Below, one piece after another: positions 6,895 through 40,058 of a stretch of DNA of 64,000 nucleotides. The number at the start of each line of letters is the position of its first letter. Position 1 is the stretch's first letter. The notes beneath the pieces are model-generated. The model did no database searches. It saw only the letters and a list, made by a program, of their open reading frames with translations, and had not been told where the DNA came from. The position numbers and the translations under genes were made by a program. This DNA is from Acidobacterium sp. (GTDB lineage Bacteria > Acidobacteriota > Vicinamibacteria > Vicinamibacterales > UBA2999). The stretch is from positions 1 through 64,000 of the forward strand of contig NSIL01000010.1 of the NCBI GenBank assembly GCA_002737365.1. The letters run 5' to 3'.

Positions 6895-7152
6895 ATGACG
6901 ATTCGCATCCGCTTCCGCCGACCCGCTCCCGCCGCCAAGAAGGTGTGCCAGCACTGTGAGAACCGGCGCAGCCTGTTCCGCCAAGAGGGCATTGCCAAGT
7001 GGGATCCCTACTACGCGCTCTGCTACAAGTGCTACCAGCGCTACGTCACTCGCGCCCAGGCGGCACCGGTACTGCGGGACGCAGCGGCCATTGCCGCCCG
7101 TCCCCCTCGTAAAACACTCGCTCTAGAAACAGGCCTGATGACGGCGCAGTAA
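6895..7152 (+). CDS. small protein with CxxC...CxxC (probable zinc-binding), unknown function
   Basis: VCQHCENRRSLF...YALCYKCYQRY; 3' end overlaps truA tail-to-tail. Confidence 0.55.
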   Translation: MTIRIRFRRPAPAAKKVCQHCENRRSLFRQEGIAKWDPYYALCYKCYQRYVTRAQAAPVLRDAAAIAARPPRKTLALETGLMTAQ

Positions 7153-7891
7153 GCTCCGCCGGTGTCGGCTTGCCGACACGCGGTGTCGACTTCGAATGTA
7201 GAGGCGGGCCTTCAGGCCCGCCTGCGGCAAGGAGGCGGTCGATGTCCTCAACGGCCATCCCGCCCTTGCCGATCGCCGCCAGCACGCCGACCATGCGCCG
7301 CACCATCTTCCAGATGAAGTGCGAGCCGGCCACACGGACCAGGATGAGGTCACCGTCCTCGATAAGGGTCACCTCGTCCACCAGGACTTCGGTCGACTTC
7401 TCATCTGGATCATCGTCGCTGAAGGCCTGGAAGTCGTGCATCCCCGTGAGCCGGCCTGCCGCGGCCTGCATGCGGGACAGATCCAGTGGCTCGCGCACCC
7501 ACCACACGAAAGGCTTGGCAAACGCGCTGCGCCGGCGCGACAACTGATACAGGTAGCTGCGCGCCACCGCGCTATGTCGCGCATGAAAGCGATGCGGCAC
7601 CGTGTCCACGGCGAGAACGTGAATGTCGGCCGGCAAGGCGTCGTTGATCCCGCGGCGAAGGGTTTCAGCCGGTAACGGCTTGCGCAGGTCGAGGTGGGCC
7701 ACCTGACGCAAGGCATGGACGCCCGCGTCCGTGCGGCCGGAGCCGTAGAATTCGAAGGTCTTGTCGCGCGTCAGCTCGCCGATCGCCCGTTCGATCTCAC
7801 CCTGAATGGTCTTGGCGTTCTTCTGCTTTTGCCAGCCGCTGTAGCGCGTTCCCGCGTATTCGATCGTGAGCTTGTATCTGGGCACGAACAA
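7046..7891 (-). CDS. truA: tRNA pseudouridine(38-40) synthase TruA
   Basis: YKLTIEYAGTRYSGWQKQKNAKTIQGEIE..GSGRTDAGVHALRQVAH; carries an extra repeat-encoded segment near the C-terminus. Confidence 0.95.
   Translation of the reverse strand: MFVPRYKLTIEYAGTRYSGWQKQKNAKTIQGEIERAIGELTRDKTFEFYGSGRTDAGVHALRQVAHLDLRKPLPAETLRRGINDALPADIHVLAVDTVPHRFHARHSAVARSYLYQLSRRRSAFAKPFVWWVREPLDLSRMQAAAGRLTGMHDFQAFSDDDPDEKSTEVLVDEVTLIEDGDLILVRVAGSHFIWKMVRRMVGVLAAIGKGGMAVEDIDRLLAAGGPEGPPLHSKSTPRVGKPTPAELTAPSSGLFLERVFYEGDGRQWPLRPAVPVPPGRE
7162..7179. repeat. palindrome GTGTCGGC-TT-GCCGACAC (within truA)
   Basis: perfect 8-bp arms, 2-nt loop. Confidence 0.8.
7198..7223 (+). repeat. REP-like element GTAG + AGGCGGGCC-TTCA-GGCCCGCCT (within truA)
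   Basis: GTAG head followed by perfect 9-bp hairpin; related copy at 16898. Confidence 0.8.
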
Positions 7892-14963: not shown

Positions 14964-16939
14964 GGCAGACGATACGCCATCAACTCGCCGGGCCTGATCG
15001 AGCTGCTCGACGCGACCACGATGTACTGCTTCCCGCCGAGCATGTAAGTCATCGGCGATCCGGTCTGGGCGCCGGACATCTGCACCGCGCCCACTTCGGC
15101 GCCGGTTTTCTTGTCATACGCGCGCAGCATGGCGCCTCGTTGTCCATCTGGCATGGCCACGGTGCCGCCCTCGCCGGAGATCAGCAGCGTCTTGGTGACC
15201 AGCGTGCCGATGCCGCCTGAGCTGCCGCCGGCACCGCCCGGCCGTCCCGTTCGCGGAATGGTGACGCCCTTCAGGGCGGGGTGGTTCTTGATCGCATCGG
15301 GCGTGTCGCCGTGCGCGATCTGCCAGGCAATTTCGCCCTTGTTGAGATCGATCGCCGTGATCCGGCCCCACGGCGGTTTGATAATCGGAATGCCGTTCAC
15401 CGACAGACCGCCGCCGCCATCTTCCGACGCGCTGCCGGCACTGATGTAGGCCATGTCAGACCGCTTCGGGTCGTTGACCATCGACAGCACGCGGACCAAG
15501 GTGTGGGAGTAGACGTAGAGCATTCCCGTTTCTGGATCGAACGAGCCGCCCGGCCAGTTGGCGCCATTCGGGATGAACAGCAAGCCTTCTTTGCCGTTCT
15601 CGCCGCGCACGATCGGCGGCGTGAACAGCGGGCCAATCTTGTACTTCGCCACCAGCGCCAGCGCCTCGGCCTTGATCTCGGGCGTGAAGTCGATCACGTA
15701 GTCTTCGAGAAAGCCCTGGCGCTCGAAGGGTGGCGGCTTGGTGGGGAAGGGCTGCGTCGGCGAGTACCACTCGCGCGGCACCGTGCCCTTCTCGACCGGT
15801 CGTTCTTCGATGGGCCACACCGGCTCGCCGGTCTTGCGATCGAACACGTAGACGAAACCCTGCTTGGTCGGCTGCGCCACTGCGGCGATCTTGCGACCGT
15901 TCACGGTGATGTCGACCAGGATCGGCGCGCACGGGATGTCGTAGTCCCAAATCGGATGATGCACGAGCTGGTAGTGCCAGATGCGCTTGCCGGTCTGCAG
16001 ATCAACCGCGAGCAGGCTCTCACCGAACAGATTGTTGCCAGGACGATGACCGCCGAAGTAGTCGCCGGTGGGAATCTCGACGGGCAGGTAGGCAATGCCG
16101 AGCTGCTCGTCGACCGTCATCTGGGTCCACACGCCGGTGTTGCCGGTGTACTCCCACGAGCCTTCATTCCAGGTGTCGTTGCCGAACTCACCGGGCAGCG
16201 GGATGGTGTGGAAAATCCACAGCCGCTTGCCGGTGCGCGCGTCGTAGGCGCGGACGTAGCCCTTCGCGTTTTTCCGGCTGCGCGGGATCGAGCCGGCGCG
16301 GTGGGCGGCGCCAACCAGCACGACGTTCTTGGCGACCACCGGCGCGCCGTTCCACGCGATCTCGCCCTCAACGGGATCGAGCTCCTGGTCCGCATCTTTC
16401 TTCAGATCGACGACGCCGTCGATGCCGAAGTCTTTGAGTGGTCGACCGGTCTTCGCATCGAGCCCGACCAGTTGATAGCCAATGGTGACGTAGAAGACGC
16501 GCTCGTCGCCCTTGCCGTCGGTCCAGTAGCCGACCCCGCGACCCGACAGGCGGCGGGATGACCGCAGCGCGCGCGGACCTTCCTCGAGCCGATGCATCCA
16601 GAGCATCTCGCCAGTGGCGGCGTTCAGCGCCACCGCATTGCGATGCTCGCCGGCCGTGAGGTACAGCACGCCGTTGATCATCAGCGGCGTGGTTTGCAGA
16701 TTGAAGTCGGGGCGCGAGCCGAGATTATCGGTCTTGAAACGCCAGGCTACGTCGAGCTGACTGAAGTTGGTGGCGTTGATCTGATCGAGCGGGGCATAGC
16801 GGGTGACGCCGAGATCGCCACCCCACGTGCGCCACTCGCCGCCGGTGGTGCCGTACTGCGCGGCCAGCGTCGCCGGCACGAAGAGCAGAAGTAGAACGTA
16901 GAAGCGGGTCTTCAGGCCCGCCTTCGACGATGCCCTCAC
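14960..16939 (-). CDS. PQQ-dependent dehydrogenase (quinoprotein glucose dehydrogenase-like), secreted
   Basis: EWRTWGGDLGVTRYAPLDQINATNFSQLDVAWRF; GTG start overlapping the upstream TGA; ATGA overlap with downstream sulfatase. Confidence 0.88.
   Translation of the reverse strand: MRASSKAGLKTRFYVLLLLFVPATLAAQYGTTGGEWRTWGGDLGVTRYAPLDQINATNFSQLDVAWRFKTDNLGSRPDFNLQTTPLMINGVLYLTAGEHRNAVALNAATGEMLWMHRLEEGPRALRSSRRLSGRGVGYWTDGKGDERVFYVTIGYQLVGLDAKTGRPLKDFGIDGVVDLKKDADQELDPVEGEIAWNGAPVVAKNVVLVGAAHRAGSIPRSRKNAKGYVRAYDARTGKRLWIFHTIPLPGEFGNDTWNEGSWEYTGNTGVWTQMTVDEQLGIAYLPVEIPTGDYFGGHRPGNNLFGESLLAVDLQTGKRIWHYQLVHHPIWDYDIPCAPILVDITVNGRKIAAVAQPTKQGFVYVFDRKTGEPVWPIEERPVEKGTVPREWYSPTQPFPTKPPPFERQGFLEDYVIDFTPEIKAEALALVAKYKIGPLFTPPIVRGENGKEGLLFIPNGANWPGGSFDPETGMLYVYSHTLVRVLSMVNDPKRSDMAYISAGSASEDGGGGLSVNGIPIIKPPWGRITAIDLNKGEIAWQIAHGDTPDAIKNHPALKGVTIPRTGRPGGAGGSSGGIGTLVTKTLLISGEGGTVAMPDGQRGAMLRAYDKKTGAEVGAVQMSGAQTGSPMTYMLGGKQYIVVASSSSIRPGELMAYRLP
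16898..16922 (+). repeat. REP-like element GTAGAAGCGGGTCTTCAGGCCCGCC
   Basis: GTAG head, near-perfect hairpin, near-identical to 7198-7223; lies in the N-terminal coding region of the PQQ dehydrogenase. Confidence 0.75.
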
Positions 16940-25309: not shown

Positions 25310-25825
25310 ATGGACCATCTGAAGGCAAAGATTCGACACGTGCCTGACTTTCCCAAGCCGGGCATCCTGTTCTACGACATCACGACGTTGCTGTGCGACC
25401 CCCAGGGGTTCCGCGACACGATTGACGCGATGGCGGCACCGTACATGGGTGAGGACATTGACCACGTGATTGGCATCGAGAGCCGCGGCTTCATCCTCGG
25501 CGCGGCGGTAGCCAACACGCTGGGGTGTGGTTTTGTACCCATCCGCAAGCCGGGCAAGCTGCCGGCCGCGACCTACCAGGAAAGCTACCACCTGGAATAC
25601 GGCACCGACGCATTGGAGATTCACCAGGACGCCTGCGGCAGCAACCAGCGCGTCCTGATCGTCGATGATGTGCTGGCGACCGGCGGGACGGCCCGCGCCG
25701 CCATCGACCTGGCCAGAAAGGCCGGCGGCAAGGTCATCGGCGCCACGTTCCTGATCGAGCTGGATTTCTTGAAGGGCCGCGACAAATTAGCGGGCGAGCC
25801 GGTTTATTCTGTTCTGCAGTATTAG
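25310..25825 (+). CDS. apt: adenine phosphoribosyltransferase
   Basis: [21 protein letters not shown]..., PRPP motif [14 protein letters not shown]. Confidence 0.95.
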
Positions 25826-25847
25826 TCCGGCTCAAGCCGGACTCTAC
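25824..25847 (-). repeat. REP-like element; - strand GTAG + AGTCCGGCT-TG-AGCCGGACT
   Basis: perfect 9-bp hairpin with GTAG head, between apt and tRNA-Arg; stem contains apt TAG stop. Confidence 0.78.
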
Positions 25848-37821: not shown

Positions 37822-38829
37822 GTGGATCTGTCCAGCACAGCCGGTTCGTTGAAGTTCTCGCTCAAGCGCGGCGCGCTCGTCACGGCCGCCAACTGGCAAG
37901 TCGTCCTCGTCCAGTTCGTGGCTGACACCTTGTTCAAAACGCTGCTCGCCGTGCCCATTGTCGGCGGCCTGGTCCTGGTGGCGCTGGTTGTCGGCGGCGA
38001 TCCGGTTGAGATGATCCGGCTGGAGCCGAGCCAGATCGTCTCCACCATGGTCGGCGTCCTGCTGGCGCAGCCGTTTGCGCTGGCCGCGTTCCTCCTGGCG
38101 CTCGGCCTGATCTTGAGCGGTGGCTCAGTGCTGATGTTTGCGGTCAAGGCCGGCAGCGTCACGGTGCTTCTGGCCGGCGAACACGCCGCCGGACCGATCG
38201 AGCAGCCACCACTGCGGCTGTCGTCATTCGCGCAGGCCAACCGCTCGAACGTCGAGCGATTCACGACCGGCGTCCGCACGCTGTTTGGCCGTTACCTGCG
38301 TCTGGGCGTCGGACTCACCGTGGTCTATGCGTTGCTGGCCGGCGGTTACATGGCGCTCGTGTTCGGCCCTCCGGCCACGGCCACGGTTGACGGCCCGCTG
38401 GCCGTCACGCTGGCATCACTCGCCCTGATCCTCGCGGTCACGCTGGTGAACTTCCTGTATCTGCTGCTGCAGATCGTGGTCGCGTTCGAAGACTGCGGGG
38501 TGCTCGAAGCCGTGCCACACGTCGCCCGACTGTTACGACGACGGACCAAGGCCATGGGGCAGGTGCTCACGTCGATTCTCGCGCTGATGCTGATGGCGAC
38601 CGGCGTGTCGATTCTAGCCACGGCCGCACTTGGCCTGATCGCCTTCGTGCCGTTCGTCGGCCTAGCCGCGCTGCCGCTGCAGGTGTTCGCCTGGCTGGTG
38701 CGCGGCGTCGTCTTCCAGTTTGTCGGACTCACCGGGGTCGCGACCTACGTGCGCCTGCATCGCACGTTACAAGCATCGGAAGTTCTTGTCCGGCCATCCG
38801 ACGACCTTCAGCAGGTGACGCGCGCATGA
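37822..38829 (+). CDS. hypothetical multi-TM membrane protein
   Basis: several TM segments; start uncertain (GTG 37822 or TTG 37849). Confidence 0.7.
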   Translation: MDLSSTAGSLKFSLKRGALVTAANWQVVLVQFVADTLFKTLLAVPIVGGLVLVALVVGGDPVEMIRLEPSQIVSTMVGVLLAQPFALAAFLLALGLILSGGSVLMFAVKAGSVTVLLAGEHAAGPIEQPPLRLSSFAQANRSNVERFTTGVRTLFGRYLRLGVGLTVVYALLAGGYMALVFGPPATATVDGPLAVTLASLALILAVTLVNFLYLLLQIVVAFEDCGVLEAVPHVARLLRRRTKAMGQVLTSILALMLMATGVSILATAALGLIAFVPFVGLAALPLQVFAWLVRGVVFQFVGLTGVATYVRLHRTLQASEVLVRPSDDLQQVTRA

Positions 38830-40058
38830 CTACGATGACCCGTGGCGACAATCCTTTAGGTTTGTCAACCGCAGCCCAGCACTTCGAGGAATCGGCCATT
38901 CGTCGCGCCGGCATTCTCGGCGCCGCTGTGCCCGGATTGATCTCGCTGGCGGCAGGGTATCCCTCGCCGGAGGTGTTTCCGTGGGACGACCTCGCGTCGA
39001 TCACCGCCGATCTGCTGGCCAGGCGGGACGGCAACACGCTGCAGTACGGTGCGACGCGCGGCTATCGGCCGCTGCTCGAGCAACTGATCGCGAAGACGCT
39101 GCACGACCGGAGCATCACGGCCGCGTTCGAGGACATGATCATCACTACCGGCTCGCAGCAGGGCCTCGACCTGGTGGGCCGCGTGCTGATCGATCCGGGC
39201 GACGTGATCCTGGTCGAGTTGCCGACTTACAGCGGCGCGATCGCCGCGTTCCACAACTTGCAGGGACAGTTCGCCGGAGTGCCGCAAGACAGCGAAGGCA
39301 TTGATCTCGTGGCGCTCGAGACCGCCATCGCTCGCCTCAAGACCGACGGCAAGACGGCCAAATTCATTTACGTCACGCCGAACTTCCAGAACCCGGCCGG
39401 CCTGCTCATGAGCCGAGCGAGGCGACTCGCGTTGCTGGAGTTCGCACGACGGCATGAGCTGTTGATCCTCGAGGACGACCCGTACGGCTCGATCTACTTC
39501 GAGGACGTCACCACGGCCGCCGACACGCGACCGATCAAGGCTGATGACACTGACGGCCGCGTGATCTACCTTGGAAGTTTCTCCAAGGTGCTCGTGCCAG
39601 GCCTCCGTGTGGCGTGGCTCGTGGCGCCACGCGAGATCGCGCAGAGGGTCGAGCTGGCCAAGCAAGCCACCGATATCTGCAGCAGCGTCTTCGATCAGCG
39701 CATCGTCCACGGCGCCATGGACCGCGGCGTGGTCGATCGCATTGCGCCGGGACTGCGGGCGCACTACCAGGCGAAGCGCAGCGTGATGGAGCAGGCGTTG
39801 CAGTCGACGCTGGCCGGCCGCGTCACGTGGACGTCACCTCGCGGTGGCTTCTTCTTGTGGATCGCGCTGCCCGCGGGTCTGGATGATCGGGCGTTGTTCG
39901 ATCGGGCGCTGGCCGCAAAGGTCAGCTTCGTGCTGGGCAGCGCGTTCTTCGTTGACGGGCAGGGCCACGGATTTGCGCGGCTGTCGTTCGCGGGCACCAG
40001 CCACGAACAGATCACCGAGGGCATTGCCCGGCTCGCGGCCGCCATCAACAGCCACTGA
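38826..40058 (+). CDS. PLP-dependent aminotransferase, class I/II (2-aminoadipate/valine-pyruvate type)
   Basis: ITTGSQQGLDLVGRVLIDPGD, YLGSFSKVLVPGLRVAW (PLP Lys); ATGA overlap with upstream gene. Confidence 0.92.
   Translation: MTTMTRGDNPLGLSTAAQHFEESAIRRAGILGAAVPGLISLAAGYPSPEVFPWDDLASITADLLARRDGNTLQYGATRGYRPLLEQLIAKTLHDRSITAAFEDMIITTGSQQGLDLVGRVLIDPGDVILVELPTYSGAIAAFHNLQGQFAGVPQDSEGIDLVALETAIARLKTDGKTAKFIYVTPNFQNPAGLLMSRARRLALLEFARRHELLILEDDPYGSIYFEDVTTAADTRPIKADDTDGRVIYLGSFSKVLVPGLRVAWLVAPREIAQRVELAKQATDICSSVFDQRIVHGAMDRGVVDRIAPGLRAHYQAKRSVMEQALQSTLAGRVTWTSPRGGFFLWIALPAGLDDRALFDRALAAKVSFVLGSAFFVDGQGHGFARLSFAGTSHEQITEGIARLAAAINSH

Follow-up and report, generated by a model that had tools for sequence, protein, structure and literature searches.

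The window, which is the whole 64,000-nt stretch analyzed, is part of contig C2 of a 3.05-Mb draft genome (G000). Among named genomes, those most closely related to it are Acidobacteria MAGs, several of which bear the label Vicinamibacteria or Vicinamibacterales. The following features of the window are considered here.

7046..7891, reverse strand: truA, encoding tRNA pseudouridine synthase A, 281 aa with the TTG start as listed (from the ORF list, alignment and a profile match)
7163..7228, reverse strand: truA loop extended relative to other genera, 66 nt or 22 codons, AAGGPEGPPLHSKSTPRVGKPT (from comparison with relatives)
7198..7223, forward strand: GTAG-tagged REP, GTAG followed by AGGCGGGCCT-TC-AGGCCCGCCT, antisense to truA
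7161..7179, no strand assigned: second inverted repeat, GTGTCGGC-TT-GCCGACAC, single-copy in the genome
14960..16954, reverse strand: PQQ-dependent dehydrogenase ORF, stop-to-stop extent, with an N-terminus that includes the REP at 16898
16898..16923, forward strand: second, slightly decayed REP copy, GTAGAAGCGGGTCTTCAGGCCCGCCT, in frame at the 5′ end of the PQQ-dependent dehydrogenase gene

The truA product matched E. coli TruA (1dj0) in a PDB profile search (E = 1e-63), and its catalytic Asp motif, R52-T53-D54, was invariant across 37 aligned TruA sequences. A sequence-only reading of this DNA had placed a palindrome in frame inside the reverse-strand gene, after the catalytic domain and ahead of the conserved C-terminal strand, and we found its sequence, coordinates, frame and location to be correct. 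The translation of the ORF contains ...DIDRLLAAGGPEGPPLHSKSTPRVGKPTPAELTAPSSGLFLERVFY, and the codons in its 3′ region are CTC CTT GCC GCA GGC GGG CCT GAA GGC CCG CCT CTA CAT TCG AAG ... CCG GCG GAG CTT ACT. The repeat unit is 26 bp long, with a perfect 10-bp stem and a 2-nt loop after the unpaired GTAG tag, and encodes the in-frame peptide (A)GGPEGPPLH. The insert follows the last long helix and precedes the conserved APxSGLFLE strand, distant in sequence from the catalytic RTD motif. In an AlphaFold model with an overall pLDDT of 89.5, only the loop, residues 224-238, falls below 50; these residues, mostly encoded by the REP, are predicted to be disordered. Judging from the frame, the REP is apparently translated as part of TruA, and its effect on the enzyme is most likely near-neutral. 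A single TruA homologue was found in the G000 genome, while most relatives have a second at approximately 40% identity; the second homologue of G000 may be lost or absent from the draft.

The truA palindrome belongs to a family with copies across the genome. Its stem pattern, with up to 2 mismatches, occurs at 2 places in the window versus 0.2 expected by chance. The search for further copies proposed with the sequence-only reading gave 4 copies of the strict GTAG form in the whole G000 genome and 0 of the reversed control, and approximately 20 near-perfect places matched a relaxed stem pattern. We compared nine genomes of the genus (G000-G008), all drafts and most of them MAGs. Allowing up to 3 mismatches, GTAGAGGCGGGTCTTTAGACCCGCC was found 8 times in G000 and 105, 97, 63, 55, 12, 5, 1 and 0 times in the eight others. 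Other families were similarly repeated, with 116 and 137 copies of GTGGGGACAAACC... in two sister genomes and 24 copies of GTGGAGGCAACCCC... in G004, and reversed-control matches were 0 for the multi-copy families counted. The GTCCGGC family occupied 30 distinct places in the sequence stretches sampled. The other families carry GTGG or GTAG tags, GTGG being as common as GTAG. These counts are based on family patterns because de novo detection of GTRG-REPs in sampled stretches yielded, in several genomes, roughly as many reversed-head controls as hits. A simple test on ORFs and GC3, used in place of proper gene calling, left 85 of the 119 distinct REP-like copies outside any credible long ORF. 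Two further elements were observed in the window: a palindrome at 25824-25847 on the reverse strand, GTAG.AGTCCGGCTTGAGCCGGACT, of the same family as that in the truA loop of G005, and a decayed GTGG.CGACAATCCTTTAGGTTTGTC element at 38842-38867, overlapping the 5′ part of the ORF 38391-40055.

RAYT genes (Y1_Tnp, PF01797) were present in all nine genomes, and in two sister species they are flanked by REPs. A 194-aa RAYT ORF of G007 (L307) lies between GTAG.AGGCGGGAC... and an inverted GTAG.AGGCGGGTC..., and one of G004 (L308) lies between inverted GTGG.AGGCAACCCC units. The flanking REPs belong to the GGCGGG and GGCAACCCC families, both of which are found in truA. G000 itself has one Y1_Tnp gene, beside which a REP was looked for and none detected; the cognate enzyme may therefore have been lost, may lie outside the draft, or may act at a distance. 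The assignment of the truA insert to a REP-type element is thus borne out, as it is multi-copy, absent from the other genera of the family, and related to repeats that flank RAYT genes. GAT precedes the tag in the GTCCGGC family and G precedes it in the GGCAACCCC family.

The repeat had also been described as a composite of two palindromes, of which only the first is a repeat. Every other match of the 7161-7179 palindrome in the G000 genome has 3 mismatches, and its right half consists of ancestral KPTPAEL codons that are present in G002 and partly in G004, G005 and G008; this coding stretch occurs also in species without the second palindrome. Because of its single copy and its overlap with ancestral codons it was rejected as a mobile element; it is probably not mobile, and it is not part of a mobile composite. 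The copy at 16898, which had been called near-identical, is real and differs from the truA REP at 2 positions. It encodes KAGLKTRFY, ahead of the signal-peptide core, and is probably translated as the positively charged n-region of the signal peptide of the PQQ-dependent dehydrogenase. The G004 orthologue (L178), which matches PF01011, has a perfect copy of the family at the equivalent place.

The sequence-only reading had proposed checking whether the inserted residues occur in this genome alone. They do not: the nearest sister (G006; L080/L005) has the same insert with the frame kept, at 94% protein and 92% DNA identity, and assembly error is therefore unlikely, the insert being shared by two MAGs. 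The two genes have 2 differences in the 66-nt loop versus 63 in the other 773 positions. In other genera of the family the loop is short and plain, e.g., LLREDSGMPARLTAPASG, as against LLAAGGPEGPPLHSKSTPRVGKPTPAELTAPSSG in the window. Within the genus, the loop is occupied as follows, always in antisense.

G000 and G006: REP GGCGGGCC
G001: REP GGCGGGTC (GTAGAGGCGGGTCTTTAGACCCGCC family) with a partial second unit
G002: two GGACAAACC units (GTGGGGACAAACCTTTAGGTTTGTCC), one of them nested, its loop invaded by another repeat
G004: REP AGGCAACCCC (GTGGAGGCAACCCCTTCTTGGGGTTGCCT)
G005: REP of the GTCCGGC family (GTGGCGTCCGGCTTCAGCCGGAC)

Five REP types thus occur in a single orientation in 6 of the 9 species. 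The REPs of G001, G002 and G004 are each abundant in their own genomes. G003 and G007 have shortened loops without an insert, and G008, which has a decayed palindrome for which no link to a REP family of that genome could be made, was for this reason counted as ambiguous. In G005, truA is interrupted by a contig break (L218, start of C69) immediately ahead of the REP loop, which is where a break would be expected if repeats disrupt assembly.

We also found in-frame REPs inside Pfam domains of at least nine genes of the genus besides truA. The interrupted domains are FAD_binding_5, MFS, M16 peptidase, tannase, P450, GH4, metallo-beta-lactamase, S58 peptidase and alginate export. Orthologues were compared for three of these genes, M16 (picked in G000), S58 (picked in G005) and GH4 (picked in G001), with the following occupancy.

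M16, G000 and G006: GGACAAACC, sense
M16, G005: nested unit of the GGACAAACC family
M16, G002: GGCGACAAACC, sense
M16, G001: a related peptide, known from protein sequence alone
S58, G005 and G004: GGCAACCCC, antisense
S58, G000: GGACCAACC, antisense
S58, G002: GGACAAACC in antisense with a nested second unit in sense
S58, G008: short loop
S58, G001, G003 and G007 (L347, L349 and L348): different tandem short repeats, e.g., CAGAAGGCAGAAGG, where others have REPs
GH4, G001: GGCGGGTC, sense
GH4, G002: GGCGACAAACC, sense

The same site was reused in all four genes (truA, M16, S58 and GH4), with five REP types in truA, three in S58, two variants of one family in M16 and two in GH4; since the genes were chosen for having a REP in one species, the occupancy in the other species is the informative part. 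Orientation was constant at each site except for the nested S58 unit of G002. A nested composite (L326, L337, L350 and L177), in which the loop of GTGG-GACAAACCTT is opened by TTGTCCGCCGAAGC...GCGAAGGTGGA and closed by AGGTTTGTC, was observed in frame in truA of G002, M16 of G005 and S58 of G002. In the GACAAACC family, the domain-internal copies that were read are in the DKPxGLS frame; of the copies in the GQTFRFV or TNLKVCPH frames, those in ORFs with a recognized domain (L134 and L143) lie outside it, and two others (L133 and L145) lie near ORF starts. These approximately ten copies, which were not gathered blind, suggest that only hydrophilic REP readings survive.

Taken together, we consider it likely, with a probability of about 80%, that a GTAG-tagged REP, which belongs to the non-autonomous palindromic elements of REP/RAYT type, entered truA in frame and is translated today into a disordered loop at the protein surface. 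In the proposed mechanism, the RAYT, an HUH/Y1 nuclease, would mobilize REP units as single strands, and most insertions in coding sequence would be purged. The survivors would be those in permissive loops, in a frame giving a hydrophilic peptide rich in Gly, Pro, Ser, Asp and Lys. Such loops would be hit or overwritten again, and different REPs and small repeats would pass through one protein site over time. We tentatively propose, at less than even odds, that a few protein loops in this genus are orientation-locked landing pads, open to repeated invasion by REP families unrelated to one another and by other small repeats. If so, the movement of REPs keeps rewriting one and the same set of surface loops in conserved enzymes, and short mobile palindromes would repeatedly add new amino acids there. 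The choice of target strand and site by RAYTs, as well as selfish DNA as a source of loop diversity, become testable from here. A further caution is that repeats are the source of loop indels in genomes of this kind and of the contig breaks that MAGs show at these loops.

Alternatively, a single REP may have entered truA in the ancestor of the occupied clade, with its stem later replaced by recombination or gene conversion, or with other REPs inserted into it. Such an ancestral filling with later turnover is possible because the TruA tree unites the occupied species with G008 in a single branch apart from G003 and G007, with moderate support (86/72); G005 is absent from this tree because only the tail of its truA was assembled. 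Nested REP-in-REP composites do occur, G000 and G005 have similar sequence adjoining the REP head but different stems, and the constancy of orientation within each site, which stop codons do not explain for all families, is also consistent with replacement. However, strand-biased insertion of single strands predicts constant orientation as well, and the stems have just the tag and the short loop in common, offering little homology for conversion. Moreover, between approximately 1 and 12 codons separate the REP head from the conserved PAELTAP, depending on the species, so that the exact nucleotide of insertion is not shared. We regard this history as conceivable, though it too falls short of an even chance. 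Under either scenario, the five REP types in the truA loop require at least four replacements or insertions after the first.

It is somewhat doubtful that the loops are instead strand-biased hot spots, stretches that RAYTs prefer as targets and that lie exposed on the lagging-strand template, which would fix the orientation of insertions there. Transposases of the IS200/IS605 type, which are HUH enzymes, target the lagging-strand template (PMC6006769), and orientation was constant at all four sites. On the other hand, the REP families are present in both orientations along the genomes, no shared target consensus was seen in the flanks of the REP tags, and in a GC-skew test of lagging-strand orientation the skew was near zero, too weak here to assign strands. 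Retention of the hairpin for a function, such as regulation of truA mRNA or tuning of TruA in the manner of a domesticated element, seems improbable: the stem of the window copy is still perfect, and G000 and G006 both retain the insert in frame and differ little in it, but hairpin sequence, length and number differ between species, and in two species the loop is shortened and lacks an insert. Hardly credible is a fast-evolving Gly/Pro-rich linker with a palindrome produced by chance or replication slippage, since, although loop length varies widely and tandem short repeats occupy the S58 loop of three species, the palindromes match, exactly or nearly so, families that have between tens and more than 100 copies in the genus and 0 reversed-control hits, which rules out both origins.

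The class of element is already known, as such cases have been described both for GTAG REPs (Di Nocera et al., 2013, PMC3733652) and for Rickettsia palindromic elements (RPEs), the classic translated palindromes (Ogata et al., 2000, discussed in PMC2229807). The likeness to RPEs drawn in the sequence-only reading holds in effect, in that palindromic mobile DNA lies in frame in housekeeping proteins, where surface sites tolerate it; PMC3733652 cites a case in truB. However, RPEs are Rickettsia-specific long-stem palindromes of 105-146 bp (PMC2229807), whereas the truA unit has 26 bp and the elements here, of approximately that length, have a GTRG tag and RAYT association, making GTAG-REP/RAYT elements the better comparison (PMC3733652). 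Protein-coding MITE fusions (Delihas review, PMC2229807) likewise join small non-autonomous elements to genes in frame, but MITEs are longer, with terminal inverted repeats and often target-site duplications; none of these was noticed here, the check for duplications being informal. In the open literature, subscription papers being mostly outside the search, we found no report of these REP families in Vicinamibacterales, nor of orientation-constant loop reuse by multiple families in multiple genes. Acidobacteria are mentioned in PMC3733652 just for transposases flanked by long inverted repeats (TIRYTs).

The closest known systems are the REPtrons (PMC3733652; Nunvar et al., 2010, PMC2817692), which share with the present elements the GTRG tag, the multi-copy palindrome of 20-30 bp, the cognate REPs on both sides of RAYT genes (here in sister genomes) and in-frame intragenic copies. 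Di Nocera et al. described GTAG REPs, RAYTs and many intragenic copies, including a REP in truA of S. maltophilia and same-site recB REPs in two Xanthomonas species (PMC3733652). Here the host differs, being a Vicinamibacterales-type acidobacterium, and several REP families turn over at one loop, in constant orientation, in all four genes examined. What is new relative to published in-frame REPs is this recurrence, which is orientation-constant and extends across several genes.
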